This document shows, one piece after another, positions 4,782-56,027 of a stretch of 56,027 nt of DNA (position 1 is the stretch's first letter; the number at the start of each line of letters is the position of its first letter). Source of the stretch: a virus. The notes below the pieces were generated by a model, which saw nothing but the letters and a program-made list of their open reading frames with translations, had not been told where the DNA came from and did not search any database. The DNA lies in IMG/VR virus record IMGVR_UViG_3300025154_001007, positions 1-56,027 of that record; one strand, written 5' to 3'. The translations under genes and the position numbers were made by a program.

Positions 4782-4976
4782 TCACTTAGTCGTCAAGCCC
4801 CTGATTATGGCCAATAAAGCGTTGTAATCAGCAACAATTCCTGCGACATCAACGGCTGTGCTGTCAGCCGGGCAGTTACCTATGAGCTTGTTCCATAGGG
4901 CGGCGTTTTGCTTTGAGTATTCCCTGCGGCCTTGTTCTGTGTCGGCGTTGGGAGATAGTACCTTTTTCTCTGCCAT
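4782..4976 (-). CDS. Small unknown protein in the virion operon
   Basis: A 64-residue polar protein starting MAEKKVLSPN. Its ATG overlaps the stop codon of the gp10-like gene (TAATG), so translation is probably coupled. It contains a predicted C-terminal helix (about residues 40-60). It has no cysteines, signal or known motif. Constant spacing in the operon suggests a small structural or assembly factor, but this is not shown by the sequence. Confidence 0.7.
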   Translation of the reverse strand: MAEKKVLSPNADTEQGRREYSKQNAALWNKLIGNCPADSTAVDVAGIVADYNALLAIIRGLTTK

Positions 4977-8750: not shown

Positions 8751-9458
8751 TTAGTCATCCGTTCCGCTGAAAAGCCAATCACTGTTTGATCCGGCAGAGA
8801 AGGGCAGGGAGTTAGCAACAGGAACGCGCATTGACATATTCCTTCGCGCTATCGTCTGCCATGCACTGTTTGCGTCGGCCCATAGGCTTTGTTCAACTTG
8901 GGTTCCGTGCATCCTTGCAAGTTTGGCGGCAAGAATCGTTACCAGAGCGTCTTCGTATTCTGCCGGTAGGCTAATGGTGGTCCCAATCAATAGGGTACTG
9001 TGCAGGTCTTTTTCACTTTCGAGAAAGACCGTATAAATGCCATTCGGAACAGGATCGAGGTAAATGACTCCGACCGGATAAACAGGGTCATAAAACAACG
9101 CATAGGGCTGACTCTGAAGCGCTTTGTCAGCTATCCCGTTGTAGTCTTTTTCTGAAATGATCTCTAATGGATAGTCTTGATTGCTGGAGTCCCGAACATA
9201 CGCGCTCTTGATTTTCTTTGCTCGCTCGGAGGACGCCGTTCCACCAGATCCCATGGTGTAAGAAACTTGGCCTGCGGTTGTAGAAAATGACTCGCTGGTT
9301 GAGTACGGCAGAATAATGTTCTGAGTTGAGAGCCGCGCAATGATCCGATTGAGGAACCGCAGGCCAAGCGTCGATTGATTTCCGTCTGGACCGTCTACAG
9401 GGTCAACGACTTGCGATTCTATGTAGGCGTCCGTTACAATGGTTTGGGCGGTAGCCAT
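8751..9458 (-). CDS. Head-tail connector / tail accessory factor, P22 gp4-like
   Basis: A 235-residue protein. The N-terminal helices carry a TLGLRFLNRIIARLSTQ segment, and a beta domain with YLDPVPNGIYTVFLE follows, both characteristic of the P22 gp4 family that docks onto the portal after packaging. The C terminus (about residues 165-235) is helical and then disordered. It starts at ATG 9458 and ends next to the fibre gene without a gap. Position between the coat region and gp10 fits the role. Confidence 0.8.
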   Translation of the reverse strand: MATAQTIVTDAYIESQVVDPVDGPDGNQSTLGLRFLNRIIARLSTQNIILPYSTSESFSTTAGQVSYTMGSGGTASSERAKKIKSAYVRDSSNQDYPLEIISEKDYNGIADKALQSQPYALFYDPVYPVGVIYLDPVPNGIYTVFLESEKDLHSTLLIGTTISLPAEYEDALVTILAAKLARMHGTQVEQSLWADANSAWQTIARRNMSMRVPVANSLPFSAGSNSDWLFSGTDD

Positions 9459-13354: not shown

Positions 13355-14566
13355 TCATCCCCAAAGTCTACACGCAAGTTCTGGCCGCTGGGCAAGGAAG
13401 CCGAAGAAAATGTCGATACGGCACGGATAATTGGCGTTGTTGATGTCGTACTGCCGCAAAATCCGCATGTTGATCCCGTCCACGGCCATCTGAGACTTGA
13501 AAGAAACGTCTGCTGGCATTTCCAGGTTCGCGGTGGCGAAAGTGAACGCCTCTGGATGGAAGACCATGTTCTGTGGATAGACCAGGGAGGCCGTACCGAT
13601 CACGGTGACAGTCGCTTCGCTGACCGGGAAGGCGTCGATGTTCTGAAGCGCTCCGGTGGTGTACATGGCAGGACTTACCGTTACATCGCCCTCTGAGCTG
13701 GCGGCTGCGAAAGCAGCGGTTACGACGAACTGCTGAAGGCTCCCGGTGCTCTGCTTGGTCTGGGGGTTGACAGCGTAGACCCCGGCGACCGTGAAGACAT
13801 CGCCAATGGTCAGGGTCTGGGTGGCAGCGCCGAAGCCGTCAAGGTGGATCGTGGTGGAGCCTTGAGTGGCGTTGGTGGCGCTATCGTCGTCAACCAGGAT
13901 CGTTCCGGAACGGGTGCCGCAGGTGTGGTTGGGCACGTTCTGGCTCATGAACCATTCGAACCCGAGGGCGTTGCCCATCTTGCCCTTGAGGTACTGTTTT
14001 TCGAGGGCAGAAGAGGCGTGGAACAGGGTTGACAAACCGGACACCGTGGAGGCTTGAGCAGCCGGGTTGATGACGGCTACGCGGTCGTCTTCGGGGGTGG
14101 CGGTTTCGTTGAGCTTCTGGCCGCCCTGGAGCCAGATGAGGGCCGTGTTGGGCGTGGTGCCGGCGGTGCCGGCGCTGTTGTAAACGGCCTTGTAAGCCTG
14201 CGAAAAGTTGTAGCTATCGACCTGGGATGCCAGCGTTTTGATGGCCGGAGAAATGAACCGCTTGGAAAATTCGTTGATGTCCAGGGCGAGGTCTGCGTCC
14301 GAAAAGTTCATGTCTACGCCGCGAATCTGGCCGATGACCAGAGACACGCTCTGCTCGTCTTGGTCTTGAGCATTGATCGCCCACGTCGAGCGAACGGTGT
14401 ACTGATTGGGAAGGCGCACACGCAGGGTAGACCCACGCTTCTGGCCGCCGAACTCGGTTTCTTTGTCGTGCTGTTTATCGATGTTTTTGGTGAAGGGGAG
14501 CGCGTTGTGCAGAACCCGTTGGGCTTCTGCCGTGATCGCACTAGGTTTTAAAAAACTTGATGCCAT
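13355..14566 (-). CDS. Major capsid protein, P22 coat family
   Basis: A 403-residue protein matching the P22 coat layout. It has an N-arm (MASSFLKPSAITAEAQRVL), an LRVRLPNQY segment in the HK97 E-loop region, VDMNFSDADLALDINEFSKRFI in the spine-helix region, and an inserted beta-rich domain (about residues 215-320). The YPQNMVFHPEAFTFATANLEMP motif near the C terminus is diagnostic of this family. It forms the procapsid with the scaffold encoded upstream. It is flanked by two rightward HNH genes, so both junctions of the coat gene are invaded. Confidence 0.92.
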   Translation of the reverse strand: MASSFLKPSAITAEAQRVLHNALPFTKNIDKQHDKETEFGGQKRGSTLRVRLPNQYTVRSTWAINAQDQDEQSVSLVIGQIRGVDMNFSDADLALDINEFSKRFISPAIKTLASQVDSYNFSQAYKAVYNSAGTAGTTPNTALIWLQGGQKLNETATPEDDRVAVINPAAQASTVSGLSTLFHASSALEKQYLKGKMGNALGFEWFMSQNVPNHTCGTRSGTILVDDDSATNATQGSTTIHLDGFGAATQTLTIGDVFTVAGVYAVNPQTKQSTGSLQQFVVTAAFAAASSEGDVTVSPAMYTTGALQNIDAFPVSEATVTVIGTASLVYPQNMVFHPEAFTFATANLEMPADVSFKSQMAVDGINMRILRQYDINNANYPCRIDIFFGFLAQRPELACRLWG

Positions 14567-17194: not shown

Positions 17195-17419
17195 TTATGC
17201 TACGGCGAAATGATTTTTCTCTTTAACCTCATAGATTCTAACGCCAAATATTTCGGCCTTTCCGGTTTTGTAATCTGTGATGCAATGGGTTTTCATCTCA
17301 TCGCTTGCTCGCAACTCCCCAAGCTCTTCATACCCGAGGTAGATAGCTTTCGGGCTTTCAAAGTCGTGGGCGTATTTGTACTCGTAAACGGCCTTGTAGA
17401 TTGACTGGTAAATTGTCAT
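17195..17419 (-). CDS. Small unknown protein next to portal
   Basis: A 74-residue protein (MTIYQSIYKAVYEYKYAHD). Tyr-rich helix followed by several strands (IYLGYEELGEL; AEIFGVRIYEVKEKNH). ATG 17419 overlaps the portal stop region by 4 nt, so it is translationally coupled to the portal gene. No family recognised. Confidence 0.7.
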   Translation of the reverse strand: MTIYQSIYKAVYEYKYAHDFESPKAIYLGYEELGELRASDEMKTHCITDYKTGKAEIFGVRIYEVKEKNHFAVA

Positions 17420-19476
17420 CGGCCACCCCCCATAGCCCTTAGAGTATCAACTACCACCTGCTGAATGATTGGTATCATCTGCGCCATATTTTGTTGGTTC
17501 TGCATTTGGGCCTGCATCTGTGTGGCTTGAATTGATTGGGCATCTTTGGCAAGGTCCAGTTTCTTGCCTTCAATGTCGAGCATGCCCTTGTCCAGGTCCT
17601 GTTGGCCCTTCTTTAAATCCTGCTCGCCCTTCATCATAGCTAACTGAATACGCGGGTCAGGAGGCGGTTGAGGGGGCGGTTGTGGCTGCATCAGAGCCTT
17701 GATCTCTTCTCCGATCTCTTGGGCTTCGGGCCAATCCTGAGCTTTTGCTATCCTGGGGATGAGGACCGGCATGACCTGGGGGGCGCCCTGGCCGAGCTGA
17801 ATCATGCCGTCAGCTGCTTCTTGGCGTTTGGTGAGATAGCCGGGGCCGGCGTCGCAGATTACGTCGAACTTGCCGGCTGAAAGGTTGTTGTATATCGTCT
17901 TTTTGCCGTTGGTCGGATCGATATAGGCGAAGTTGACATGCGCCCATGCTTCCGTGCCGTTGTCGTTCGGGTTGATGAGCGGCTTCCCATCCGGGCCCGG
18001 TTTGGCATTGGCGAAGGTCTTTTTCAGGTCGTCGCCCATCAGCCTTACAACCCTATCGCCGTCGTAGATGTTTTGGATGAGATCGACCAGGACTTTGCCG
18101 GTATATTTGATGGCCTTTATCTGGTTGTCTGGAAATTCAAAGGTTGCAATGTCGCCTTCGGCTGCTCTGGCACGAATAGCTTTGCCGCTGGTCTCGTTGC
18201 TTCTCGCCCCCAAGGAGGCGTCATAGACTCCGGTTGTGACCTTGATATCGTCGGCTGAGATTTGGGCAAGCTGAAGGGCTCCTTGATCACCTACAGAACC
18301 GCCGAGGCGTTGGGGCGCTGCCTGGCCCTCTTTGTGCTCGTAAAGCAGATACGGCATGGGTGTTGTGTAGGCTTTATCCCACAAGGCTTGATACTGCCCA
18401 ATCTGTTCAGCGGTCAAGATCCACGGCTGCTTAGGGGACAGGGCAAGGGTTTCCATGTTGTTCGACATGGCCCAATTGTAAATCTTCTGCGGCTCCATGG
18501 CGTCTTTTATCGCGCTGTTCAGAATCCGTTCGCCTTCGATCCACTTTTCCTCACCCAATTCAGGGATGATCGGTATGTATTTTCCGGCCCATTCTTGCGG
18601 GCCTTCCAAGATCTCCCTCCCAGAGATTTTGCACCACATGACTTTGTGGCTTTTGACGGAGCGGGTGCGGACGAAAGGAGTTTTAAAGCCGTTGGAGTCT
18701 TCGACCATATCAACTTCTTGTCCGGTTTCGTCTGTCTCTTTCGTGACCTTGGGCTTTTCGATCTCGATTACGTTTCCGTTCGGCAGTTCGTAGATGTGCT
18801 TGATAACGGGCTCTTTATACCAATATTCTGCGATTCTTACCGTGTCGGTGGCGAACCAATCTGACATGGATTCGCCTTCGCCTTTTTCAAATCCTCCGAA
18901 ATTTGACTTGGGGTAAAGTTCTTCGGCCTTTTTGCGCTTGATGTCTGAAATGATAAAACAAAAATCGGCATCGCTGTAATCTGCCTTGATCGCGGATTGA
19001 TCGTAGTAGACCGAGAAGGGGTTAACGATGCGCTCGATATAAATATCCTGGTCAAACGTGTTGTCGTCGGCGTACCGTGAGAGTGCCCGCCAATAACCAT
19101 AGGCTCCGCGTACTGAACAGCTTGCCCCGTTGTCATAGGCCGAATCGGCATCCGATACGTTTTCGATGTTGCGAATCAAGCCGGTCATAAGCTCGGCCAC
19201 CATTGGATCGGTGGATGAATCCTCTGGCAGGATCTTGATGCGCGGTCTATTCTGGCGCATGGAGTTGACGATCTTCTTGGACGTTCCCGAAACCCTGTTG
19301 ACTGTGCAGCATGGCCTTCCGAGGCGCTGCTGCTTCTCGGCCTCGGTCCATTGGTCGCCGTTCTCAAAGGCCATCGATGCCCGAGCCCGTTCACGGTTCG
19401 CCTGCTCTGCGGTCTTGGATTCCTCGAAGCGTTCAAGGGCTTTGGTTATGAAGGCTTGCTCTTTTTCTTTTTTCAT
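17416..19476 (-). CDS. Portal protein, P22-type
   Basis: A 686-residue protein that forms the dodecameric DNA entry channel. Family features include the N-terminal EQANRERARASMAFENGDQW region, RPCCTVNRVSGTSKKIVNSM, and the long helical C-terminal tail rich in Gln (about residues 580-686), which would form the barrel in P22-like portals. Length is near P22 gp1 (725). It starts at ATG 19476 after the GIY-YIG gene. The Pro/Gln tract at about 595-615 (QPQPPPQPPP) is low complexity. Confidence 0.92.
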   Translation of the reverse strand: MKKEKEQAFITKALERFEESKTAEQANRERARASMAFENGDQWTEAEKQQRLGRPCCTVNRVSGTSKKIVNSMRQNRPRIKILPEDSSTDPMVAELMTGLIRNIENVSDADSAYDNGASCSVRGAYGYWRALSRYADDNTFDQDIYIERIVNPFSVYYDQSAIKADYSDADFCFIISDIKRKKAEELYPKSNFGGFEKGEGESMSDWFATDTVRIAEYWYKEPVIKHIYELPNGNVIEIEKPKVTKETDETGQEVDMVEDSNGFKTPFVRTRSVKSHKVMWCKISGREILEGPQEWAGKYIPIIPELGEEKWIEGERILNSAIKDAMEPQKIYNWAMSNNMETLALSPKQPWILTAEQIGQYQALWDKAYTTPMPYLLYEHKEGQAAPQRLGGSVGDQGALQLAQISADDIKVTTGVYDASLGARSNETSGKAIRARAAEGDIATFEFPDNQIKAIKYTGKVLVDLIQNIYDGDRVVRLMGDDLKKTFANAKPGPDGKPLINPNDNGTEAWAHVNFAYIDPTNGKKTIYNNLSAGKFDVICDAGPGYLTKRQEAADGMIQLGQGAPQVMPVLIPRIAKAQDWPEAQEIGEEIKALMQPQPPPQPPPDPRIQLAMMKGEQDLKKGQQDLDKGMLDIEGKKLDLAKDAQSIQATQMQAQMQNQQNMAQMIPIIQQVVVDTLRAMGGGR

Positions 19477-20178: not shown

Positions 20179-20206
20179 GAGACACTTGTTTTTGTGTCTC
20201 GTTTTT
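20179..20206. other. Hairpin after terminase large subunit
   Basis: GAGACAC (20179-20185) and GTGTCTC (20194-20200) pair across an 8-base loop and are followed on the plus strand by GTTTTT. The minus strand, which carries the genes, has no T run. The rest of the 20072-20204 gap shows nothing clear. Function uncertain; it could block antisense transcription. Confidence 0.45.
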
Positions 20207-21491
20207 ACAGGGCATACGCGCTAACCCTTGGCATTGAAAACGGCTTAACTGGAGCGCCCTGTTCTGCGTTTCTCATTTTATCGACGTTGACCATAAACCC
20301 GCGCAGCATGTCAGCGGCGTGAGAGTGCTCGTCGTGCAGGGGTGTGCTTTCTGCTCCGGTCTTTGAGTTTAGATGCCGCCTGTACCTCTTGATGTGCTCA
20401 ACGAACTCACTGCACCTGCCTTGATCGATCCTAAGTTGCGGGAATTTCATGCGCGTTATTCTGATACCCTCCTCAATTGAGGGGCTCGATATTTCTTCCC
20501 TTGCCGGAACATCCCAGCCAAGCTTTTTAAGAATGTCGGCTGAGCTCAACCCCTTTGATTCCATGCGCTTTGCATAGCCGTCATGCGGCAGGTATAGCTT
20601 TCCCCAATTGTACCGCCTGGCCTTCAGTTCGTCAGAGTACCAATTCCAATCCTGCTTATCTTTACCGGCGATAAAATCAATCATCCTATATTCCGAACCA
20701 AGCACTTGAAACATCCCAATAGGGTTGAAATCGTTCCTGCCAATATCAACTACCAGGTGAACCTTTAGCATTGGGTCATAGGGAACATAGGCAACGCGAC
20801 CTTGTGATTCTGCCTCCTGGATCTGTTTAAAATAGATCGCGCCTTCGACTGCTGGACGGCACTTACCCTCCCATATATTGTCGTAATTGTCTGGATCGGT
20901 AGCCTTGCAGTGGAGTCGTTCTTTATTGAGGACTTCGTTAAACCATGGATTGTCTCTCCAGTTGATTTCCCTGCTGATGCAGTCCGGTGGTGGGTTTTTA
21001 ACAAAGCGCTGGTACGTTTCATCGGATTCAAGGTCTGGGTTAAGAGATACCCATATTTCCGAATGGTCTTTTCGGATCGTTGGGATGAGAATATCCCAAG
21101 ATCTCTTGGTGATAGTCTGCCCTTCTTCCACCCAACACCGATCAACGCCCTCAAAGGATTTGATGGTATCAACGGTCAGGTTTGAAAGGCCTGTGAATAG
21201 GAACTCTGTGCCGTTCCTGCCTCTTATTTCGGTTTCGTATGGGGTGTAAAACGACGATAGGCCCATGCCGGCTATTTGATCGCACAGGAGTTTATGAACG
21301 GATTGCTTGATGGAGTTCTGAACTTCGCGGGCACACAGGTTGCGCTCTTTTTTATACATCCCAAGGGCGAGAAGGGATCTCGCATACGACCACGACTTTG
21401 CAGATCCACGACCGCCATAAGCTACCTTGTACCGGGCAGGCGATGCCAGGAACTCAAGTTTTTCAGGTAGCATCATGTCGAGCACCGGCAC
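20205..21491 (-). CDS. terL: Terminase large subunit (Terminase_3 type)
   Basis: A 428-residue packaging ATPase/nuclease. Walker A is GGRGSAKS (residues 27-34), the Walker B-like region RCWVEE (about 118-123), and the motif III region WVSLNPD (about 147-153). The C-terminal RNase H-like nuclease domain starts with LVVDIGRND (about 247-255) and includes YLPHDG and DEHSHAADMLRG near the end. The first codon is GTG 21491; ATG 21476 is an alternative. It follows the small subunit gene by 3 bp. The packaging mode (headful or cos) cannot be read from the window. Confidence 0.94.
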   Translation of the reverse strand: MPVLDMMLPEKLEFLASPARYKVAYGGRGSAKSWSYARSLLALGMYKKERNLCAREVQNSIKQSVHKLLCDQIAGMGLSSFYTPYETEIRGRNGTEFLFTGLSNLTVDTIKSFEGVDRCWVEEGQTITKRSWDILIPTIRKDHSEIWVSLNPDLESDETYQRFVKNPPPDCISREINWRDNPWFNEVLNKERLHCKATDPDNYDNIWEGKCRPAVEGAIYFKQIQEAESQGRVAYVPYDPMLKVHLVVDIGRNDFNPIGMFQVLGSEYRMIDFIAGKDKQDWNWYSDELKARRYNWGKLYLPHDGYAKRMESKGLSSADILKKLGWDVPAREEISSPSIEEGIRITRMKFPQLRIDQGRCSEFVEHIKRYRRHLNSKTGAESTPLHDEHSHAADMLRGFMVNVDKMRNAEQGAPVKPFSMPRVSAYAL

Positions 21492-44523: not shown

Positions 44524-44739
44524 TCATTCCTTGTCGCCATAAAGTTGGTTGAAACGTAGCACCCTTTCTTCCTGAGTCAGCACGCTCAACCTCTTGATAC
44601 TCATCCTGAACGCTTTCGACAGTCTGATCGTTGATACGGACCACGGGTTTTTAATGTCATCAACGCCTTGCAGGAACCTGTTTAATGTTGCTGGATCAAG
44701 ACCATATTTCCGAGCTACCGATCTTTGACTTTGTGCCAT
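44524..44739 (-). CDS. Cro/C1-like HTH regulator
   Basis: A 71-residue protein. The helix-turn-helix SVARKYGLDPATLNRFLQG (about residues 7-25) and a second helical part (STIRLSKAFRMSIKRL) fit a small Cro-like repressor. It is transcribed leftward from a TTGACA-N17-TACAGT promoter whose -10 box lies within a palindrome, and diverges from the 44821 gene. It probably represses one or both promoters. Confidence 0.75.
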   Translation of the reverse strand: MAQSQRSVARKYGLDPATLNRFLQGVDDIKNPWSVSTIRLSKAFRMSIKRLSVLTQEERVLRFNQLYGDKE

Positions 44740-44760
44740 TTTCTGATCACCCCCTTTTCA

Positions 44761-44816
44761 AACACTGTAATTTAGTGTTGATGATATGTCAACAACAAAA
44801 TTGATGGAGTATCAAT
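44761..44816. promoter_or_regulatory. Switch region with three inverted repeats and a leftward promoter
   Basis: The leftward promoter has TTGACA at 44792-44787 and TACAGT at 44769-44764 (17-bp spacer). Inverted repeats are AACACT-N7-AGTGTT (44761-44779), GTTGA-N7-TCAAC (44777-44793) and ATTGAT-N5-ATCAAT (44800-44816). The last encloses GGAG before ATG 44821, so it may be an operator or a hairpin that hides the ribosome site. Confidence 0.72.
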
Positions 44817-44820
44817 AAAA

Positions 44821-45375
44821 ATGATGCCTGAAATAAATAGCCCGCACCGAAACGGGAAACGCAATTTTTTGACAGTGATCCGGTCGAACCTGGATCGCTA
44901 CACGAAAACCGTCAAAGACGAGGAGGTGGCAGAATATATAGGTGTGCATCCGGCCGCGTTCAGCCGCATGCTCAAAAGTGACGCCTACGCAGTCCAGCCC
45001 CCTGGCAAGCCGGCCAAAACAGATAGAGGCGTAGGTGGTGCCGCCTGGACCGTAGACCGCTGGTTCAAAGCTCTGGAGTTTTTGGGGATCGATCCCCATT
45101 CGGCCATAGACTCGGTATTCGGCAAATCATCCAAAGTTATTGCATCGGAAGGAGGCGATGAAGCAACGGCTCAAATCGTGTCAATGCTACACAAACTTGG
45201 TCCCGACGATTCGGTATTGGCTCTGTTAAGGATGGTGCGAGAGATCAAGGAACAGCGTGGGGATATTGGTTTGGTTCTCGACGCGGTTCGTGCGATCCAC
45301 AAAGCGGCGGTTCCCAAGCGGGTCAATAAAAAGACGACTTGCGAGGTATCGCAGTTGTTCGCGGGAAACGGGTAG
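44821..45375 (+). CDS. HTH-containing regulator, divergent partner
   Basis: A 184-residue protein. After a basic start, an HTH-like region (DEEVAEYIGVHPAAFSRML, about residues 38-56) is followed by a linker, WTVDRWFKALEFLG, and two long helical parts (TAQIVSMLHKLG; LVLDAVRAIHKAA). It lacks a LexA-type peptidase motif. It is the only rightward gene in this region and ends at a bidirectional terminator. It may be a repressor or activator balancing the 44524 gene. Starts ATGATG; either may be used. Confidence 0.7.
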   Translation: MMPEINSPHRNGKRNFLTVIRSNLDRYTKTVKDEEVAEYIGVHPAAFSRMLKSDAYAVQPPGKPAKTDRGVGGAAWTVDRWFKALEFLGIDPHSAIDSVFGKSSKVIASEGGDEATAQIVSMLHKLGPDDSVLALLRMVREIKEQRGDIGLVLDAVRAIHKAAVPKRVNKKTTCEVSQLFAGNG

Positions 45376-46107: not shown

Positions 46108-46686
46108 TCAATAGATTCTGATTCGTTCCTGTGCGTAAATTCCAAGCCGGTTCAATTCACCCGGCACAACGCCCTTGCCATCGTTCATGCTGGCCGGGAT
46201 TATACCGGCGTCAACTGCTGCCTGTTGGATCATTTCTGAGCAGTAAAGGAAAGACCCGTTGAGCGGCACCCTGGGACGGAACAGAAGACTGACCAGCGAC
46301 AGGTAGTCGTATCGGACCTTCTTTTGGCCTTCGCCGCCCTCGAAGCGCAAGGCAGCTTTCGCCAGCTTTAAGCGGTCTGCCGGGTCCGACAGGCAACGCA
46401 CGAGATAGACTTTGCCCTTGTACCCGTCCAGAACCGAAGAAAGAAACCTTGGCTCAACGCCGCCTTCAACCGCTTCGGAAATGCTGATGCGCGGTTCGGT
46501 GTCGCCGTCAAGAATGTATCGAAAGGCAAGCGACGAGTGGTTGACCGGCATACCTGTGCGCCACCGGATGGCATGAGCAACCGGGCTTGTTCCGGTCCAT
46601 TCGATGGAATCTCCTGTCTGGATGTGATATCGAAGCAGTTGGTAACGCATGTATCCGGTTATTTTTTCATCGATATATGGGATCAC
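46108..46686 (-). CDS. NlpC/P60-YiiX-like peptidase-fold protein
   Basis: A 192-residue protein with GTG start 46686 overlapping the muramidase stop (GTGA); ATG codon 13 is an alternative. GDSIEWTG, NHSSLAFRY (catalytic-like His), ISEAVEGGVEPRFLSS and YCSEMIQQAAVD fit the YiiX/DUF830 branch of papain-like NlpC/P60 folds. The usual catalytic Cys is not obvious at the N-terminal motif, so circular permutation with YCSE supplying Cys is likely. Placed in the lysis cassette. Confidence 0.7.
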   Translation of the reverse strand: MIPYIDEKITGYMRYQLLRYHIQTGDSIEWTGTSPVAHAIRWRTGMPVNHSSLAFRYILDGDTEPRISISEAVEGGVEPRFLSSVLDGYKGKVYLVRCLSDPADRLKLAKAALRFEGGEGQKKVRYDYLSLVSLLFRPRVPLNGSFLYCSEMIQQAAVDAGIIPASMNDGKGVVPGELNRLGIYAQERIRIY

Positions 46687-47111
46687 TTAACCCCCGCCGC
46701 GTTCAGCGCCCGGCAGATCCACCCGAGCAAAAACTTCTTTTGGCTCGGCTTCGCCTGACAGATACGAACATACCTCTTGATCCGCTTGACGGCCATTGCC
46801 ATTGCGAACGCATCGATTTTGAGCGTTTCCATCAAGAGTTCTTTGGCTGCACTGACGCCCATGTTGACCGCGATATCGAAAACGATCTCCGCGTGCCGCT
46901 GGTCGTTCATTCTGTCACAGCCGCACTTGTCCCAACAATCCCTTCTGTAAAGCGCCTTGGCGTCTTCCAGCGTGAGTTTGGAAATATCAAGGTCAGGGTA
47001 CGCCCGCTGACTTATCCCGTAGCGTGTGCGTCCTCCACGGTCGTCAGGGTCGTTTGAGTCGCCGCCTTCAAAGGCAACAGTTAGAAGAAAGGCTTTTTCA
47101 AAGTCTGGCAT
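46683..47111 (-). CDS. GH108 muramidase (endolysin)
   Basis: A 142-residue protein from ATG 47111 (AAGGAGG upstream). The catalytic motif TVAFEGGDSNDP (Glu15) and RGGRTRYGIS define glycosyl hydrolase family 108, with DCWDKCGCD and VNMGVSAA in the second half. It cleaves peptidoglycan glycan strands at lysis. The C terminus is shorter than in members with a peptidoglycan-binding domain. Confidence 0.9.
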   Translation of the reverse strand: MPDFEKAFLLTVAFEGGDSNDPDDRGGRTRYGISQRAYPDLDISKLTLEDAKALYRRDCWDKCGCDRMNDQRHAEIVFDIAVNMGVSAAKELLMETLKIDAFAMAMAVKRIKRYVRICQAKPSQKKFLLGWICRALNAAGVK

Positions 47112-47266
47112 TATGCCTCCTTGGGCTTGAGGTATTCGAGAACCTTTTGAAGTATACCCGGCACTTTCTTTTCGATCCCGCACAGCGCTGTGCAGACCGG
47201 GCAGGTGTCGGCCTTGAATTTCATTTTGCGACCGCAACATTTACAGGTTGGTTTTATCCACAGCAT
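47111..47266 (-). CDS. Small zinc-ribbon protein in the lysis cassette
   Basis: A 51-residue protein (MLWIKPTCKCCGRK). CKCCG (C8, C10, C11) and CPVC with a later Cys (about residues 22-29) suggest a metal site. Its TAA overlaps the muramidase ATG (TAATG), so it is coupled to lysis gene translation. Function unknown. Confidence 0.65.
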   Translation of the reverse strand: MLWIKPTCKCCGRKMKFKADTCPVCTALCGIEKKVPGILQKVLEYLKPKEA

Positions 47267-47434: not shown

Positions 47435-47707
47435 TCAATCACCCTTCTCGATCAGCCTGTCAAGCTTCGCTTCGATCCTTTTTAGCCAATCCGTGAGCCC
47501 GTCGCTTTGCTTTTCGACGGCGCCCAATCTCACGGACGTAGAGCATGAGTTCTGCAGCCGCTGGCACTCGGCCACTTCCCTTTTCGGCGGGCTGGCCTCC
47601 AAGGCTGTCACGCGCCTCTCTATGGCATGATTCACCCATTTGGCGATACCAAAAAAGGCCAGCAGGAGGCCGAGCAGCTTGCCGAGTGCTTCCACGAGAT
47701 CGGTCAT
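47435..47707 (-). CDS. Membrane protein with coiled-coil tail, holin/antiholin candidate
   Basis: A 90-residue protein with one N-terminal membrane helix (ALGKLLGLLLAFFGIAKWV) and a cytoplasmic or periplasmic coiled coil (RRVTALEAS; DWLKRIEAKLDRLIEKG). It heads the lysis cassette upstream of the muramidase. The topology resembles small holins or spanin-like proteins. Assignment is positional. Confidence 0.65.
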   Translation of the reverse strand: MTDLVEALGKLLGLLLAFFGIAKWVNHAIERRVTALEASPPKREVAECQRLQNSCSTSVRLGAVEKQSDGLTDWLKRIEAKLDRLIEKGD

Positions 47708-47765
47708 TTTTGAGCCTTTCTTTTCTGGTTCATCGCTTTAGGTGCGTTCACGTTCATTCCCTACC

Positions 47766-49598
47766 CTACGGCAGCAACCCAGGCTTTGCGCCCATGCTGC
47801 GGGTGGTTGTGCCTGCGCCTGCACCGTACAGAAAAGCTCCGATTTCATACGTCGCAGAAGCCCAAGGAATACCCCTGGCATCTTTGGTGACGATTGCTGA
47901 TACCGAACTTGATCCGTTGTCTATCGCTGGTGATCCGGCTTGAAGGGTAAAATCGTTTGATGCCGCATTTGTGAATGCCGGGTCTGTGGTCTGGTTGGAC
48001 GTGGACCAGGCCGGAACCGTATCGGCATTTCCGTACCAGAGGTTATTACTGCCAGAGCAGGTGATATTGCTACCGCACCCGGTTATAGAAAACCACGAAC
48101 CATTATTTACTACGATATTATTGCTAAGGTATAGAGCGGTTGGCAGAGTATCGGACCCGCGAACCAGCATCGCGTATCCGCCGTCCATGTCATAAATGGT
48201 GTTATTATATAGATAGAAATTGCCACCATCCCCACCGCGAAGGGCGCCAGGGTCGCCTATGGCTATTGGCGTGCTTGCTGAATCAGATACGACGTTATTG
48301 TAGAAGTACTCGTTTGTTACGAATCCATAATCAGGCGTGTCATCTCCAGTACCCAGAACGCACGCACTCATTGATGTGTGGTGGAACCAGTTGTCGTGGA
48401 TGAATAGATTGTCAACGGAATCTCCGGACTGATGCCCGTAAATATAAAACGCATGGCCTTTTGGAATGTAGCTTACCTCGTTCCAACCAATATACATGTG
48501 GTCATGCCCGGTTCCGGTTGGGTAAGAGCCGGAAACCGAAAACCCATAACCATCCTGCACCGGAGTTGTATCCCCTCTATTATCAACTCCAGGATCGTGA
48601 ATGTAACATCCGAGTAGGTAAATATAGGTTTGGGTTTTACCGGAGATAAATGTTATTACAGTCTTACCCTCATCCCCAGGCGTGCCGCCGTGAGTAGTCG
48701 CATCAAGGCCGATAAAGCGGCAATGGCTCGATTGTTGTGCATAGTATGCTTTTGTAAAATTGATCGCGTTGGAGTGCCCGTTGACAGTCAAGTTTGAGAA
48801 TGTCCAATAATGGACATGGTTTGTTGCCTCTGTTGACCCGTTAGTTCCTATTGCTGATAAGTCATCGACAGACGATGTTCCAAGCTGAACTGCTGCGGCA
48901 GGGTAGGCTTTAAAGGTAATCGACAGACCTTCTGTGCCGTCTGCATGGTTTGTATTGTAGAAATCCAGCACGTATTTTCCGGCGTATCCACCTGGATCAG
49001 GGGTATCCCACACTCCCGCGCCAAGGTAGGCGACATCACCCGCAACAAGAATATCCCTCAGTTCAGCAACGCTGGCCTTCGGGCCGGAGGTGCCTGATTG
49101 AAAAGTCGCATAAAGCCCGGAATATGTATCGCTGGCACTCGTTTTTGAAATGAAATATATCTTGTTGGAGCCTATCGCTCGGCAGTGAAACGGGATAGAT
49201 AAGCTTGTGCCTTCTGATGTCGTGACGGTGATGGTTGAGTTTGAATATGATCCTGTTACGCCCATTGAAGAGTTGAGAAAAAAAGTCACGCGCTGAAGCT
49301 GGTCAATGCCGTTAAAAGTCGGCGTGATTGGGTCGGTGGTCGCGCCCCACTCGGCATAGTCTCCAGCAGCCGTGATATCAACCGAAGTTGCGGCGGTAGC
49401 GTTGGCAACTGTGACGTATGATGTCCCACGGCTTGAGCCAAAATTGATGCCGTAGATGGTCACGGCAGCGCCCTTAGTTGCACTACCCTCCCACCCCGTA
49501 ACTGGGCCATCGGTCATGTCGGAGAAAAACACGACCGGAGCGGTAGCGTTTGCAACTCCCGAGAATAGCAATAAGATTAAGGCTATTCTTGCGATCAT
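47766..49598 (-). CDS. Exported beta-helix protein (adhesin/depolymerase-like)
   Basis: A 610-residue protein. Signal peptide MIARIALILLLFSGVANA (cleavage about residue 18). An IPT/TIG-like strand-rich domain (about 20-135) is followed by parallel beta-helix repeats with N/D-rich turns (about 250-530: YWTFSNLTVNG, IHDNWFHH, YLYNNTIYD, YLSNNIVVNN) and a choice-of-anchor-like end (GSPAIDNG). This is the fold of phage tailspikes and polysaccharide lyases, yet phage virion proteins do not normally carry a Sec signal. The start overlaps the upstream gene by ATGA. Enzymatic activity is not evident. Confidence 0.72.
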   Translation of the reverse strand: MIARIALILLLFSGVANATAPVVFFSDMTDGPVTGWEGSATKGAAVTIYGINFGSSRGTSYVTVANATAATSVDITAAGDYAEWGATTDPITPTFNGIDQLQRVTFFLNSSMGVTGSYSNSTITVTTSEGTSLSIPFHCRAIGSNKIYFISKTSASDTYSGLYATFQSGTSGPKASVAELRDILVAGDVAYLGAGVWDTPDPGGYAGKYVLDFYNTNHADGTEGLSITFKAYPAAAVQLGTSSVDDLSAIGTNGSTEATNHVHYWTFSNLTVNGHSNAINFTKAYYAQQSSHCRFIGLDATTHGGTPGDEGKTVITFISGKTQTYIYLLGCYIHDPGVDNRGDTTPVQDGYGFSVSGSYPTGTGHDHMYIGWNEVSYIPKGHAFYIYGHQSGDSVDNLFIHDNWFHHTSMSACVLGTGDDTPDYGFVTNEYFYNNVVSDSASTPIAIGDPGALRGGDGGNFYLYNNTIYDMDGGYAMLVRGSDTLPTALYLSNNIVVNNGSWFSITGCGSNITCSGSNNLWYGNADTVPAWSTSNQTTDPAFTNAASNDFTLQAGSPAIDNGSSSVSAIVTKDARGIPWASATYEIGAFLYGAGAGTTTRSMGAKPGLLP

Positions 49599-50317
49599 TG
49601 CGGGTTGTCTCCTATCTGAACGTCATCGCCGCGTAGCTTGTCAAAGATTCCTGAAATCCCTGTGGTTGAAAGCAAAGACACAAGCGCAACGCGAGATATT
49701 GTAGCCTCATTTGAGCCAGATGAGGATATCGCATAGTTGTCACCGCTGGTCGGTCTTACTCCATCGGTTGAGAAACCAACCTCTATTACACCATCAACAG
49801 CACTCGCGGCGCTCTCAGCTTTATGATGCACCCAAACTTTATAGGTCGTGCCTGTTGACATCGCTCCGACTGTTCGTGCAGTGCCTGATCCTTGAGTTAT
49901 GTATAGTGTTCCGTCTGAACCAATTTGTACGTTTGATACAGCCACCGTTCCATTATACAGCGAAAAAAATGTTCTATCCCCACCGGCCAGAGCTACCGGG
50001 CGATAGAGGAAATAAACCCATATCTCACCTATCGCTGTGATCGCTGTATAAACGCGTGAGCTTGTAACTGTTCCATCGAGAAAAAAACTCTGCGCCCCTT
50101 CGAGGATGGTCGTGGTGTAGTCATAATCCGGTGTGCCGGTGACAGTTACCCAAGTTAGGTCGGTGCCGGTAGGGTCAAACGACTCTTCAAAAAGATAGGT
50201 GGGGGCTGGAGCAGCGCTCGGCACCGACCCCGCCATCTGCCCCGCCCCCATCCAGGCGTAGGACGCGGACCCGGCGAGGAGCAGAATCAAGGCTATGGGG
50301 AGAAAGTATTTTCTCAT
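49595..50317 (-). CDS. Exported lectin-like protein
   Basis: A 240-residue protein. Signal peptide MRKYFLPIALILLLAGSASYA. The remainder is strand-rich with the layout of a concanavalin-like/laminin-G sandwich: FEESFDP, TTTILEGAQSFFLDG, EIWVYFLYRP, FFSLYNG, YKVWVHHKA. Such domains bind glycans. It is coupled to the beta-helix gene by ATGA and follows the 50327 gene by 9 bp. Localisation to virion or host surface is unknown. Confidence 0.7.
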   Translation of the reverse strand: MRKYFLPIALILLLAGSASYAWMGAGQMAGSVPSAAPAPTYLFEESFDPTGTDLTWVTVTGTPDYDYTTTILEGAQSFFLDGTVTSSRVYTAITAIGEIWVYFLYRPVALAGGDRTFFSLYNGTVAVSNVQIGSDGTLYITQGSGTARTVGAMSTGTTYKVWVHHKAESAASAVDGVIEVGFSTDGVRPTSGDNYAISSSGSNEATISRVALVSLLSTTGISGIFDKLRGDDVQIGDNPQ

Positions 50318-50326
50318 AGATCACCT

Positions 50327-52315
50327 TTAGTTTGTGTCTGTCCAAGTCCCGGTTCGGCTCGTCATACGAAGGTTTGTTGCGTCCTGAGCGATGAAGCATA
50401 TTTGCGCCCCGGCAGTAGAATCGGACGTAACCGAATCACCCGCCGATAAAGTCGCTCCGTTTAGCCAAATTACATCAGCGTCATCAGGGTTGATAACTAC
50501 CGCTGCCGCCGTGGTAGAGTGAACACAGAACGAATCCCCAGCAGTAATGGCAGCAAGGTTGATCGTTCCCGCTCCGGTCGCCCAATGAATGTAGCCTTTT
50601 TGCATCGCTGAGGTTAACGTTTGGCCGTCTGCGTCGGTAGTCGAAGCGACTAAGCCTCCAATGGTTCCCGAAACAACCAGGTCGGTATTGATCCGAACCG
50701 CTGTCGCAGCTTCAATGTCAACATAGCCGTCGTTCAGCGAAGCAATGTATTCGGTGGAGTCCCTAAGCTGAAGCTGCATGGCACCATTTAGCAGAATGCC
50801 CGTATCAGGTACGTGAGTCAGTGTTACGTCTTGATCGGCACCGAAGTTGATTACGCTCGCGTCAGCCAAGAACAGGTCCGACCATTCAAGTGTAGCAGAG
50901 CCAAGAGCCGCGCCGTCAGCGGCATCAGGATTAAGGTTGGTGCCTCCGGTGAGGCCCATAACACGCCCTACTTTGGTGCCGTTCTCGTACATGTAGAGAA
51001 GCGTTTCAAACGAATAGAACCCGCTCTCGCCCGCTGTGAGCAATGGTTCGTTGCCGGTCGTGTTGTTCGGTAGGGTGGAATATCGTGCTCCGTCTACAGC
51101 GCTGGAAGCAAAGCTCGGTGCTGTGATCGTTCCGGTAGTCGTAAACGCGCCATCAGCCCCAATAGACCACTTCAGGTCTACACCGGCGTTATCATATCCC
51201 CTCAAGAAATACCCGTTGGCGTCCGCATCGTCGGTTAGTTTCAGGTCGATAAAGGAAACGTCAGCGGTAAGGTCGGCGGTTGTATTCGTAAAGGTCCATA
51301 TTGAACCGGCAGTGTTCAGGGTGGAGGTCAGAGTGAGTTTGTAACCGGCTTGGGCTATTGTACCATCTGCAACCGGATCACCGATAGCATCCAGCGTAGC
51401 GGAGCCGGCGGTAGCGTTGAGCGTGATGTAATCCCCATTGTCGTCAATGGAGACATTTGTTCCAGCCCTGATTGCACCGACCCCGCCATCGTATAGATAA
51501 TCGGCGGTTGCGGCAGCGTCCACCTTGACCGTGAAAGCATCGCTGCCGGCTGTTGCACTCAAGGTGCTGGACGCCTGGTCAAAGGAAAGGCCGGTGCCAA
51601 TCGTGAAAGGCTTGTAGGTATTTGTAGTATTGTCGAAACCGAAAAGCACGTGGGCCGCGGGATCAGCGGGCAGCAAGAGCAAGTCGCCAGGATCAACGCC
51701 TTGGTAACTCCAAGTTCCTGTCCCGGTGGTGCCAACTGTAAAAAGCCCACCGTTTTCGGTCGGGTAGCCGGTCTGCCAGCGGATGCCCCAATTTTGTGTA
51801 AAATCAGACGAGAAAAGGTCAAAGCGATAGACGTTCGCCGCTACATTGGTATACCACCGCGCCGTGCCGAGTGTCGTTCCGGCGACGCCAAGGACGAGGC
51901 CCACTGCGCCGGTCAGCGTCAGATCAGCAATGGACAAGCTGGAGTCTGCGATAGAGCCGTCTCCATCAGGATCGATGGTCGCCATGAGGTAGTCGATCAG
52001 GGCATTCTGGGAAACTCCGTGAGCCACGTCTCCGTCCATGTTTGCAGCAGTCACAGCCTCGTCTACGACTTCAGCAGCAGCACCGGAAAACTGAGTGGCA
52101 AGGATTGTGGGGCTCCACACGCGAGACTTTGTTTCGGTGCCTGCGGTAAGCTCTGCTGCTGTACCTGGAGGGGGAACGGGAGCTGCGGGAGGCCCCTTGA
52201 TGTTGCTAAGACCAACGCATCCACAAAAGAGAAAGGCGACCAGAATAACGGTCAGCGAAAATCCACTTCCGACAAAGCCGAAGCGTCCCAATCTGTCAAT
52301 GTTCCGTAGTTCCAT
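50327..52315 (-). CDS. Fibre-like lipoprotein
   Basis: A 662-residue protein from ATG 52315 (AGGA upstream). The hydrophobic segment SLTVILVAFLFCGC at about residues 20-33 ends in a lipobox-like Cys. The rest is fibre-like: Ala/Thr/Gly-rich strands, and repeats such as LEWSDLFLADASVINFG and VTLTHVPDTGILLNG found in tail-fibre trunks. The C-terminal part has IHWATGAGTINLAAI and STTAAAVVINP. With the next two genes it forms a set of three exported structural-type proteins. Confidence 0.7.
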   Translation of the reverse strand: MELRNIDRLGRFGFVGSGFSLTVILVAFLFCGCVGLSNIKGPPAAPVPPPGTAAELTAGTETKSRVWSPTILATQFSGAAAEVVDEAVTAANMDGDVAHGVSQNALIDYLMATIDPDGDGSIADSSLSIADLTLTGAVGLVLGVAGTTLGTARWYTNVAANVYRFDLFSSDFTQNWGIRWQTGYPTENGGLFTVGTTGTGTWSYQGVDPGDLLLLPADPAAHVLFGFDNTTNTYKPFTIGTGLSFDQASSTLSATAGSDAFTVKVDAAATADYLYDGGVGAIRAGTNVSIDDNGDYITLNATAGSATLDAIGDPVADGTIAQAGYKLTLTSTLNTAGSIWTFTNTTADLTADVSFIDLKLTDDADANGYFLRGYDNAGVDLKWSIGADGAFTTTGTITAPSFASSAVDGARYSTLPNNTTGNEPLLTAGESGFYSFETLLYMYENGTKVGRVMGLTGGTNLNPDAADGAALGSATLEWSDLFLADASVINFGADQDVTLTHVPDTGILLNGAMQLQLRDSTEYIASLNDGYVDIEAATAVRINTDLVVSGTIGGLVASTTDADGQTLTSAMQKGYIHWATGAGTINLAAITAGDSFCVHSTTAAAVVINPDDADVIWLNGATLSAGDSVTSDSTAGAQICFIAQDATNLRMTSRTGTWTDTN

Positions 52316-52686
52316 ATTTTTATTCCTTCTTCGCAAACTCCGACGTTAACGGCGTGCTCTGGCAGTATCCCGAACCCGAAGGCTATAGCCGGGTAACCTT
52401 GCTGGCCTTTGTGTTTGAGCATCCACTCTCTTAGGATTTCGGCCCAGATGATGGTCGCCAAAGTATCGCAATCGCCCATATCTTCGGCGTAATCGTCCGG
52501 TGAAAGACCTTCGGAAGCGAGCTTCCCCATGGCGCAAGTAACAATCGTGTCCATCTCAGATACGGTGAAAATGGCGTACTGCTCATCGAAGAGTCTGATG
52601 CCGCGACCAAAAAGACCACCGGCACGAGAGGCGCGGATGATCTTTTTCAGTTCATCGGAGGTTACGGTTTTCAAATCTCTTCCCAC
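52252..52686 (-). CDS. Transglutaminase-like cysteine peptidase-fold protein
   Basis: A 144-residue protein, GTG start 52686 overlapping the stop of the upstream gene. EDMGDCDTLATIIWAE (C73), PEHAVNVGV (H111) and GIKIWN (N126) give a Cys-His-Asn/Asp series as in transglutaminase-like peptidases. The C terminus overlaps the fibre-like lipoprotein start by 64 nt. It resembles the soluble domain of the 6464 gene in motif order. Function unknown. Confidence 0.65.
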   Translation of the reverse strand: MGRDLKTVTSDELKKIIRASRAGGLFGRGIRLFDEQYAIFTVSEMDTIVTCAMGKLASEGLSPDDYAEDMGDCDTLATIIWAEILREWMLKHKGQQGYPAIAFGFGILPEHAVNVGVCEEGIKIWNYGTLTDWDASALSEVDFR

Positions 52687-53069
52687 ATATATAAAACGAT
52701 ATGGATTTCCGTAGCGTTCCCGGCGTTAGAAATAACCGGCTCAAGTATCATGTGGTTAAGAAGCCCGAAGCCGGTTGATAGCGCCTTGTTTCCGCCGTTG
52801 GTTGATTCGGAAAGATTCGCACCGTCACCGCTGAGAATGTCGGCCCATTCTATGGTAGTTCCATCAGGCTTGCGGTATTTGGCTTTTAACACCAAATCCC
52901 AAGCTGCGGTCACTCCCGCGCCTGGAACAAAAGCGAAGGCGTAAAGCTCGCCGCCCTGAACCTCAAACGGGATGCCGCTCATGTCTCCGCTGGCGTCAAC
53001 CGTGCATTTGCAGACCACCGACCGTTTGCGCCCGAAGTATTCTTGATTGATTGTCATCGATCCTGGCAT
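52671..53069 (-). CDS. Unknown structural-type protein
   Basis: A 132-residue beta-rich protein from ATG 53069 (AAGGA upstream): VVCKCTVDASGDMSGIPF, YAFAFVPGAGVTAAWDLVLK, and TEIHIVLYMWEEI at the end. The pattern resembles small phage fibre-base or assembly proteins, but no family was recognised. It is the first gene after the late terminator at 53086. Confidence 0.62.
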   Translation of the reverse strand: MPGSMTINQEYFGRKRSVVCKCTVDASGDMSGIPFEVQGGELYAFAFVPGAGVTAAWDLVLKAKYRKPDGTTIEWADILSGDGANLSESTNGGNKALSTGFGLLNHMILEPVISNAGNATEIHIVLYMWEEI

Positions 53070-53307: not shown

Positions 53308-53439
53308 ATGGAACCTACCCTTTTAATAGGCGTATTGTTGGCATACGCGGTATATTCGTATTTTGGGATATTGGGCGTTGCTATCGTTTCGCTTGCTTGC
53401 TGCATAATCTTGGCCGTTTCTAAAAAGCTATTCCCCTGA
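53308..53439 (+). CDS. Small rightward membrane protein
   Basis: A 43-residue frame (MEPTLLIGVLLAYAVYSYFG, then ILGVAIVSLACCIILAV) made of one or two hydrophobic helices with a KK near the end. No ribosome site, but a promoter places the transcript start at the ATG. Its last 12 nt are antisense to the end of the 53428 gene. An alternative leftward frame (53211-53453) has no such features. Real but uncertain. Confidence 0.45.
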   Translation: MEPTLLIGVLLAYAVYSYFGILGVAIVSLACCIILAVSKKLFP

Positions 53440-56027
53440 GTTCTCTGCCGCAACCGTCCCGACTACCGCCGCCGCCCTTGAAACGCCTGTTTTGGCCTGC
53501 TTGTACGCATCAAGGCTTATAATTTTGTCCTTAAGCTGTGCGCTTAGTTTGGCGGGCTGGATCTTTCCGTTTGCCGCCCTTATCAGAAAGTCAGCATATT
53601 CAGGATCGAACATGGCCCGCGTTACGAGTTTATCGATTTCCTTTGTGCTGTGCTTATTGAGAACCGTTGCGAGCCCTTTAACGACTGATGCCGTGCGTGA
53701 CATATGGGTTAGGGTAGAAAGCCGCCCAAGGACGTTCTCTGCCGTGTCCGAGCCACCGCCTATGGCGCTCCGTGTGTTCCTCGTTGAAATCTCATAGGCC
53801 CGTTGCATGGTTTTTAGGGCGTTGAGCTTTTCCGGTGTGCTCTTATACAAAACATCCATTGCCGGTTCATACTTTTTCATGATCCTTGAGAAAGCCGCGT
53901 TGGATACCGTGGGATTGTTGGCAATATCCTTGGCTGTCGTTTCTACCATTCGCATGATATGATCGGCAAAGGCGTTCTGAAGTCCTGCGGTAGCCGCTTT
54001 GTCGCCCTTAACCATATTCAAAAGGTCCATAGCCGCCTTGGTCGTGTTGTTGCCTTTAATGGCGTTGGCTATGGCCTTTTCTGTATCGGAATTAAGGATT
54101 CTGGAGGCCGCCGACTTTTCAAATTCTGCCGCTGCTTTGGCTGCACCGTCCGCTATGTTTTGCGCTCCTTCAACGTCGCTGAAATCAAGGCCGTATTTTT
54201 CAAGTGATTGCTTGTTTCTGTTGAGCCACGAGGTCAATTTTGAAGTGACTATATCGCCGTTCTGGTTTGTCGCGGATTTCAGTAGGTCGTAGGCGTAATG
54301 GCCTTTCATGATCCCGCTGGCTTTTTCTTGACCTACGGCCCTGATTAGATCCTCTGCGCCTGAGACTGTGGTAAATAGGCTTGGGATGTCTTCGGTTCTG
54401 GTAGCCGCGCCGGTCGCCTCTTTGCCTTTGGTGAGAGCTTTTCTAACCGCGCCCTTGTCAAACTTTCCGAAGTATTCAGAAGAGGCGAAGTCGTTAAAAG
54501 CTTTCATGGAGCTGGCAACGTCCTTACCGGGTTCAACGGCGTTTAGGATTTCCCTCAATTCCAAAATTCTCTTGTCGGTTTCGCCAGCGGCACCCAGGCC
54601 GGTATTTTTCATGAGCGGGTCTTTGCCAAAAATCCTTTTGTAGTCCCTGGACAACCGGGCCGCAAAACTAGTGTCGTCTTCTCCATATTGCCGCATCATG
54701 GTAAAGCCGTTTTTGTCCTTGATGGCCTTTACCATGCCTTCAATGTCGGGGGCTTGGCTGGCTTTTAGTTGCGCCGATCTTACGGTAGCTTTTTCGAGTT
54801 CATCGGCTAAAACGTCTGTGTTGACGGGTTTGCCTTTGTATTCTCCGATCTTGCCGCTTCTTGCCATATTTGATAATTCGGCAAGGTCTTTTTCGAGTGC
54901 GTCCCTTACTCCTGTCAGCGCTTCGCCAACTGATTTGTTTCCACCAGGTGCGAACGCCTTGGATATTTCATCGTTGAGCGTTCGCCGGATGCCCATGGCC
55001 GTGAAGGTGGTTTTGCCGCGGTCGTCAAGAATCCTTTCGATCTTGTTTTCGGTTTTGAATATTGCCGACACTTGGTCATCGGAAAGCTTCTTGTTGGCCC
55101 TGGCCTCGCTGATGGACTTGCGAACATTGCCGAAGGTCATGGGGTAATCAGGGATTGAGGATTCAAGTTCATTCAGAGTGGCCTGCACCGGCTTTTTTGC
55201 AGAGCGGATAGCGTCAACGGCTTCTTCTCCCACCGCTTGAGGTGGAGCCGGGCCCATGCTATTGACCATCGGCCTAACTGCGCCTCTTTTGGTTGAAGCT
55301 TCTCTGTCGATGGCCGTTTTTTTGCCGCCGAGCGAACTGATTAAATCGTCAATATTTCCCTGCCCACCAAAGTTCTTGTCGTAGTGCGCCCGTAAAGCTT
55401 CGTTGTTGGCTGCAATCTGTTCGGCGTTTTGGGTGGCCGCATCGGTTGCCCTGATTTGTGAGCGCTCAAGCTTAATCATGGCTGGGTCGCCGGTTCTTTG
55501 CCCAAGGGTGAATTTCAGGCCCTGGATTTCTTTTTCAATACGTGCGGCTTCTTCGGCGTTTCGAGCGTAGATAGTGCCTTCCGATGTATTGGCCCTGAGA
55601 ATGTTACCAGCTTGCTTTTCAAACTCTTTTTTGGAGACAAGGCCGGATAGACCGCCAGTTGCCTTCTTGAAGATCGTCTTCCCGCCACGTAGTACAGGGA
55701 CAAGGGCCGCGCCTATCGCTGCACCTCCAACCTCAAGGGCCGCGCCTGTGGCAAGATCCTTCCCGGCCTCAGTGAACGATTCGACCGGGCCAGAATATTT
55801 TTCTTTAACCCCTGCGTACATATCCAGGGTATCGGCAAGGCCCTTGCCAGAGGCATAGCCAACCGCTCCACCGGCTACGGAACCAACCGGGCCGCCTGGG
55901 GCCCCTGCAGCCGCTCCGAGCGCCGCGCCTGCACCTTCAAGTACCGGCCTGTAAAGCGGCGAAGTTGCCCGGAGTCCTTTTTTTGTGGCGTCTTCGAGCT
56001 GCGCTGTATCTTCAAGTCCTATTCCGG
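53428..56027 (-). CDS. Main part of origin-spanning ejection-type virion protein (972 residues)
   Basis: In the window this frame lacks its start; it continues from 9-453 through the circular junction, and the N terminus lies there. The segment includes a Gly/Ala zipper (GGPVGSVAGGAVGYASGKG) followed by long charged helices and coiled coils through most of its length, with an Ala/Lys-rich end. This is the composition of P22 gp16-like or other large ejection proteins that enter the host membrane. A Met at 55821 could be mistaken for the start. It ends the late operon, followed by the terminator at 53086-53123. Confidence 0.85.
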   Translation of the reverse strand, partial: GIGLEDTAQLEDATKKGLRATSPLYRPVLEGAGAALGAAAGAPGGPVGSVAGGAVGYASGKGLADTLDMYAGVKEKYSGPVESFTEAGKDLATGAALEVGGAAIGAALVPVLRGGKTIFKKATGGLSGLVSKKEFEKQAGNILRANTSEGTIYARNAEEAARIEKEIQGLKFTLGQRTGDPAMIKLERSQIRATDAATQNAEQIAANNEALRAHYDKNFGGQGNIDDLISSLGGKKTAIDREASTKRGAVRPMVNSMGPAPPQAVGEEAVDAIRSAKKPVQATLNELESSIPDYPMTFGNVRKSISEARANKKLSDDQVSAIFKTENKIERILDDRGKTTFTAMGIRRTLNDEISKAFAPGGNKSVGEALTGVRDALEKDLAELSNMARSGKIGEYKGKPVNTDVLADELEKATVRSAQLKASQAPDIEGMVKAIKDKNGFTMMRQYGEDDTSFAARLSRDYKRIFGKDPLMKNTGLGAAGETDKRILELREILNAVEPGKDVASSMKAFNDFASSEYFGKFDKGAVRKALTKGKEATGAATRTEDIPSLFTTVSGAEDLIRAVGQEKASGIMKGHYAYDLLKSATNQNGDIVTSKLTSWLNRNKQSLEKYGLDFSDVEGAQNIADGAAKAAAEFEKSAASRILNSDTEKAIANAIKGNNTTKAAMDLLNMVKGDKAATAGLQNAFADHIMRMVETTAKDIANNPTVSNAAFSRIMKKYEPAMDVLYKSTPEKLNALKTMQRAYEISTRNTRSAIGGGSDTAENVLGRLSTLTHMSRTASVVKGLATVLNKHSTKEIDKLVTRAMFDPEYADFLIRAANGKIQPAKLSAQLKDKIISLDAYKQAKTGVSRAAAVVGTVAAENSGE
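55902..56027. repeat. Right copy of 126-bp exact end repeat
   Basis: Identical to 9-134 in direct orientation. The reading frame through this copy continues directly into the left end, so the two copies represent one locus of a circle of 55,893 bp. Confidence 0.93.

Follow-up and report, generated by a model that had tools for sequence, protein, structure and literature searches.

The 56,027 nucleotides of the IMG/VR virus record IMGVR_UViG_3300025154_001007 (I will refer to the whole stretch as the window) carry on their minus strand, at positions 47766-52315, a cassette of three genes for proteins of the fibre, putative lectin and putative beta-helix types, each of which is predicted to begin with an export signal. 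This run of signal-bearing genes is neither a product of chance nor a local oddity. The signals, to judge from their sequences, are probably used for export. The function I favour, tentatively, is that the proteins are exported deliberately and mask or trim glycans on the host surface in cis; a role as decoys or adhesins is plausible. The recurrence of similarly tagged fibre genes in unrelated phages suggests the existence of phages that send fibre proteins out of the cytoplasm, whether in place of building them into virions or before doing so.

The three proteins and their signals

Export signals were called with a home-made, rule-based predictor rather than with SignalP. Calibrated on genes of Escherichia coli K-12, it recovered 11 of 15 known exported proteins and made three false calls among 86 others. 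Against a background of 10 signals in 432 genes (those upstream of lambda-J-like genes, considered below), three signal-bearing genes in a row are expected about 0.0009 times in about 74 genes. The first-pass annotation of this DNA had proposed three adjacent genes, one with a lipobox and two with signal peptides. The coordinates it gave were correct, and the predictor found signals on all three products: a lipobox in fibre 1 and type I signal peptides (SPI) in protein 2 (score 8.5) and protein 3 (score 7.4).

Fibre 1 (662 amino acids; 50327-52315, minus strand) starts at the ATG at 52315, preceded by GAAGGA, and its signal, of the lipoprotein type (SPII), occupies 52220-52315. The N-terminus reads MELRNIDRLGRFGFVGSG-FSLTVILVAFLFCG up to the predicted cleavage before CVGLSN (full signal MELRNIDRLGRFGFVGSGFSLTVILVAFLFCG). 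As in bacterial lipoproteins, the Cys stands in a lipobox (LFCG, then C) that follows a hydrophobic core. The lipobox passes the broad PROSITE-type pattern used in the scan, fails the strict pattern L-[AS]-[GA]-C and has Val at position +2. The raw label given by the predictor was 'TM', owing to a hydrophobic stretch within the fibre; the lipobox was detected nonetheless. Beyond it lie a Pro-rich linker, a fibre-type repeat and a conserved central domain. Residues 326-512 match a tail fibre of Roseobacter phage CRP-902 (33%; E 2e-5), the sole match when the cassette proteins were compared by tblastn with 50,697 phage records, and both this similarity to an annotated fibre and the position of the gene after the ejection genes are those of a tail fibre.

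Proteins 2 and 3 both show the positively charged n-region, the hydrophobic core and the small residues at -3 and -1 of Sec signal peptide I. In protein 2 (240 amino acids; 49595-50317, minus strand; signal at 50255-50317), the predicted cleavage falls between MRKYFLPIALILLLAGSASYA and WMGAGQMAGSVP. The signal and the mature N-terminal module WMGAGQMAGSVP are 79-82% identical in two of the related loci described below (L008 and L009), and the remainder, which includes a variable C-terminal domain, differs. The retention of this segment (50219-50317) while the rest of the protein is swapped may indicate a docking peptide. The window copy matched no family in Pfam or PHROGs, and no Laminin_G/ConA domain was found there; its relative in L008, which has the same N-terminal module, contains a strong Laminin_G_3 domain (E 2e-23).

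The start of protein 3 (610 amino acids; 47766-49598, minus strand; signal at 49545-49598) overlaps the stop of protein 2 by four bases, and its signal MIARIALILLLFSGVANA ends before TAPVVF. The protein has a TIG-like N-terminus, from a match below the curated cut-off, and a putative beta-helix-like body, described as such from Asn-rich repeats, a match to DUF5123 below threshold (E 1.7e-5) and a match to Beta_helix, likewise sub-threshold, of the beta-helix gene that belongs to the L005 cassette. A relative of protein 3 in L003, 34% identical within the alignment, begins with an SPI as well. AlphaFold models of proteins 2 and 3, made from two-sequence alignments, had a mean predicted local distance difference test score (pLDDT) of about 35 and were unusable. 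The mature parts of the three proteins contain two, zero and six Cys residues, respectively.

Relatives of the cassette and probable use of the signals

Viral contigs searched with fibre 1 and protein 2 yielded eight loci, and a scan with the fibre core added a further one, L014. All eight aligned fibres (window, L002-L005 and L007-L009) have an export signal, SPI or SPII, despite several unrelated types of N-terminus: there is a lipobox in the window, L002 and L004, and an SPI at the same place in L003 and L008. Identity in the fibre core (residues about 133-264) amounts to 83-96% for L002-L005 and L007 and to 55% for L009. Where loci are long enough, signal-peptide genes form runs flanked by tail or ejection genes on one side and lysis or terminase genes on the other, with six such genes in L005 and four each in L008 and L014. 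L009 (4846-12613) presents nine or ten signal-peptide genes in a near-unbroken row.

The phages that carry the cassette differ. L005 is a siphophage with a tape measure and J, L009 has baseplate-type genes, and the window, L002 and L004 have ejection genes of the podovirus type; L008 has a large terminase subunit (TerL) whose sequence is not detectably similar to TerL of the window or of L014. In a survey based on terminases, fibre-sized signal-peptide cassettes were found only in near relatives of L008, and the fibre-like genes of its more distant relatives (about 57% identity) are without signals. Two scans of genome contigs for a host gave, the first, nothing and, the second, only generic signal peptides of 19-27 residues in Bacteroidota, which were rejected as chance matches.

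Cassettes in unrelated phages share junctions of 20-42 bases at gene ends, identical or nearly so at the DNA level and in some cases running beyond stop codons into spacers. As read from their sequences, these short junctions mark the exchange of modules among unrelated phages. The one that spans the 3' end of the protein 3 gene and the spacer after it (47749-47804, minus strand) has 39 bases that are 95% identical to L003 and 28 bases that are 100% identical to L009; it extends past the stop codon, and the genes after it differ. It is likely a recombination boundary at which modules were exchanged, the other reading being a C-terminal tag (AKPGLLP/RAKPLLP). Such a sorting tag, seen as TTRSMGAKPGLLP or ATHRLRAKPLLP in L003, L009, L023 and the window, was considered but not adopted, since it is the DNA that is conserved, and it remains so past the stop codon.

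Signal-bearing fibres also occur outside this family. I surveyed 80 viral loci around lambda-J-like proteins, 66 of them with downstream genes, and signals were predicted in 35 of the 222 genes that fill the first four slots downstream of J versus 10 of 432 before it (Fisher p 5e-10), the 35 including some lysis proteins. Most proteins in the fibre slot have no signal, in agreement with the view in the first-pass annotation that virion fibres normally lack Sec signals. Fibre-sized proteins with signal peptides were found in about 10 of the 66 loci (L047/L048, L075, L076, L084, L088, L090, L101, L106, L109 and L116), a figure affected by a crude gene caller. Locus L040 (5285-9366) is from an isolate, Bradyrhizobium phage ppBdUSDA122-1 (OP596612.1), in which J is immediately followed by a tandem pair of tail fibres with signal peptides, proteins of 482 and 865 amino acids. 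One of these, annotated 'tail fiber protein', starts with MKLQRLLGAIGAVVMSVSTALA before AEQ, combines a Collar domain (E 3e-10) with numerous matches to tail-fibre PHROGs, and comes after another signal-peptide fibre. The same pair is present in L090, and the L088 relatives retain both signals and Cys pairs.

That the signals are probably used follows from three observations: their character is kept under purifying selection, a signal has been added before a full-length fibre, and a pair of Cys residues accompanies it. The latter two tests were made on relatives of the window proteins. Among seven homologous pairs, the signal-peptide codons have a pooled ratio of nonsynonymous to synonymous substitution (dN/dS) of about 0.34, and 40 of 41 replacements stay within the hydrophobic/small or the polar/charged class. 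Residues 38-212 of the 482-amino-acid Bradyrhizobium fibre align with residues 10-180 of a signal-less fibre in L056 (E 2e-15), and in L075 (11681-12901) the signal, ending in APA, stops exactly before SQYDFGTIVP, at the point where signal-less homologues have M-SQYDFGTIVP. By alignment, then, the signal-bearing fibres after J are full-length ones with a signal added at the front. In the N-terminal domain that these fibres share, two Cys are present in five of six copies with signal peptides, the five representing three loci, versus none of 17 copies without (Fisher p 2e-4); the position of the second Cys varies, which suggests more than one origin. The overall Cys content is also higher in the signal-peptide proteins (0.98% vs 0.64%; p 2e-4). 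A pair of Cys residues is expected of a protein that folds in the oxidising periplasm.

The genome around the cassette

The ends of the window are identical over 126 bases (positions 9-134 and 55902-56027), and the genome, with a G+C content of 51%, is therefore probably circular, at about 55.9 kb. By its gene content the phage is a P22-type podovirus. Its minus strand encodes TerL (20205-21491), a portal whose nearest records are about 36% identical (17416-19476), a scaffold, the major capsid protein (13355-14566), a gp4-like adaptor (8751-9458), gp10-like head closure (4976-6397) and a DNA-ejection protein (3175-4773). A signal-less fibre-type protein of 542 amino acids without Cys (7122-8750, minus strand), a candidate virion fibre, is encoded between the adaptor and head-closure genes; its residues 257-391 are 47% identical to the signal-less fibre after J in L005. 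Within the operon of ejection proteins there is also a radical SAM protein with a GNAT acetyltransferase (1722-3184), a pair conserved at 59-60% in the same place in L002 and L004.

Continuing along the minus strand, the ejection genes are followed by the circular junction, a large internal or ejection-type protein (53428-56027, continuing over the junction at 453-4), two small genes and then the three genes of the cassette. The genes just upstream of the cassette (52671-53069 and 52252-52686) are signal-less. The second encodes 144 amino acids and has 64 bases in common with the start of fibre 1; its Cys/His pattern looks by eye like that of a cysteine protease or transglutaminase, with no family match. 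The 132-amino-acid gene of the window was checked as a signal-less form of the small signal-peptide gene that opens the cassettes of L003 and L007, and no such relation was found.

Directly after the cassette come a small membrane, holin-like protein (47435-47707, minus strand), 94% identical to one in the siphophage L005, a GH108 endolysin (46683-47240, minus strand; Pfam PF05838, E 9e-22; PHROG endolysin, E 7e-37), the first of the lysis genes, and more genes of the lysis type. Among these is one (46108-46686) whose product matches a PHROG annotated as enoyl-CoA hydratase (E 4e-7) and has a 35% identical relative in L009.

Possible roles and known systems

The position of the cassette beside the lysis genes suggests that it is expressed late, and a late position argues against an early block to superinfection and for a role around the release of progeny. 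In the mechanism I tentatively prefer, the three genes would be expressed late together with the tail genes, and their products would reach the periplasm, the outer membrane (fibre 1, through its lipid anchor) or the exterior. There they would act in cis, binding or trimming surface glycans or receptors of the host; receptors of the producing cell and its debris might then no longer trap progeny or admit rivals. A separate signal-less fibre, which may serve the virion, is present in the window (7122-8750) and in L005 (8077-9057), and in L106, L109 and L116 signal-less fibres precede the signal-bearing ones. This speaks for accessory proteins that work outside the cytoplasm rather than for parts of the virion.

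Several considerations weigh against this proposal. The signal calls are predictions of the home-made predictor alone, and the test of Cys pairs draws on few independent lineages, relatives of the window proteins rather than those proteins themselves. The signal-less neighbours upstream mean that the block is exported only in part, and the analysis revealed no means by which proteins 2 and 3 could cross the outer membrane. Finally, Llp of phage T5 is a small periplasmic lipoprotein and not an exported fibre, so that it could be an analogue in its job only.

The late position adjoining the lysis genes would also suit secreted proteins that loosen or bind the host's exopolysaccharide or biofilm around the dying cell, allowing progeny to disperse with no masking of receptors. 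Cassette proteins show folds in keeping with such an action, of the lectin (Laminin_G_3), beta-helix, G8-like and TIG-like types, but no catalytic family was recognised and the lipid anchor of fibre 1 argues for attachment to the cell. I consider this explanation unlikely, if a serious contender.

It is rather more doubtful that these are virion fibres exported through Sec, which would acquire disulfides in the periplasm and be attached to tails upon lysis or later, part of the virion thus being built outside the cytoplasm. The cassette does occupy the position of the P22 tailspike gene. A full fibre fills the slot after J in L040, L088 and L101, with a signal ahead of it and with signal-less homologues that share its start point, and the signal of L075 abuts the SQYDFGTIVP that directly follows the start Met of its signal-less homologues. 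What keeps this explanation alive is the Bradyrhizobium group, whose signal-peptide fibres come next after J and which showed no signal-less fibre. The lipid anchoring of fibre 1 fits it poorly, however, as does the separate signal-less fibre of the window, L005, L106, L109 and L116, and I know of no tailed phage that assembles its fibres by way of export.

Were the phage temperate, the proteins might instead be adhesins that decorate the lysogen. Divergent regulators that appear by eye to be of the helix-turn-helix type lie at 44524-45375, and Lom of lambda, in which the predictor called a signal peptide, adjoins J. On the other side, no integrase was recognised among the open reading frames scanned, the cassette is tightly packed with late genes, and its region gives no independent promoter signal (eight promoter-like sites against 6.4 expected), all of which makes lysogenic conversion improbable. 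Least credible, although export is a matter of prediction only, is that the hydrophobic N-termini go unused for it and reflect chance or a virion anchor, given the signal character kept over unrelated N-termini, the dN/dS ratio and the Cys pairs.

Tail fibres are usually taken, annotated and used as parts of virions made in the cytoplasm. If the export of fibre proteins is borne out, receptor-binding modules would take on further roles at the surface of the infected cell or beyond it, in receptor masking, clearance of debris or spread. Predictions of host range that treat every fibre as a virion part would then mislead, and the extracytoplasmic assembly of parts of tailed virions would become a testable question. 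The Bradyrhizobium phage, with its named host, offers a practical test case.

Among known systems, the superinfection-exclusion lipoproteins Llp and Cor, of which T5 Llp is encoded beside the gene for the receptor-binding protein and blocks the receptor (PMC9586334), resemble the cassette in being phage lipoproteins next to a receptor-binding gene with a proposed action on receptors after infection. Llp, however, is a small protein that acts from the periplasm to jam FhuA, whereas the window has several fibre-, lectin- and beta-helix-type proteins of 240-662 amino acids in a row, one of the three with a lipobox. P22 gp9, the tailspike, shares the gene position after the ejection genes and the beta-helix-type body suspected in protein 3, but it has no signal peptide, the window has three genes in its stead, and no tailspike match (head-binding or beta-helix domain) appeared in Pfam, PHROGs or PDB sequences. 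Surface lipoproteins diversified by bacterial diversity-generating retroelements (DGRs) likewise bind ligands and bear lipoprotein signals; the targets of phage DGRs are reported to be without signal peptides (PMC6199706). Analysis of the window brought no diversity-generating element to notice, no systematic search for one having been made. In the open literature I found no report of tail fibres with signal peptides, though subscription journals may hold one.

The lambda morons Lom and Bor are, like the cassette products, exported phage proteins, and Lom adjoins J, but Lom resides in the outer membrane, Bor is a small lipoprotein, and neither is a fibre. The two tandem SPI fibres after J in ppBdUSDA122-1 are alike in arrangement; they differ in having other fibre sequences, in belonging to a siphophage with J and in the absence of a visible separate signal-less fibre after J. 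The cassette belongs with the exported accessory proteins of phages, unusual among them in its origin from tail-fibre modules and more widely spread than was first apparent.

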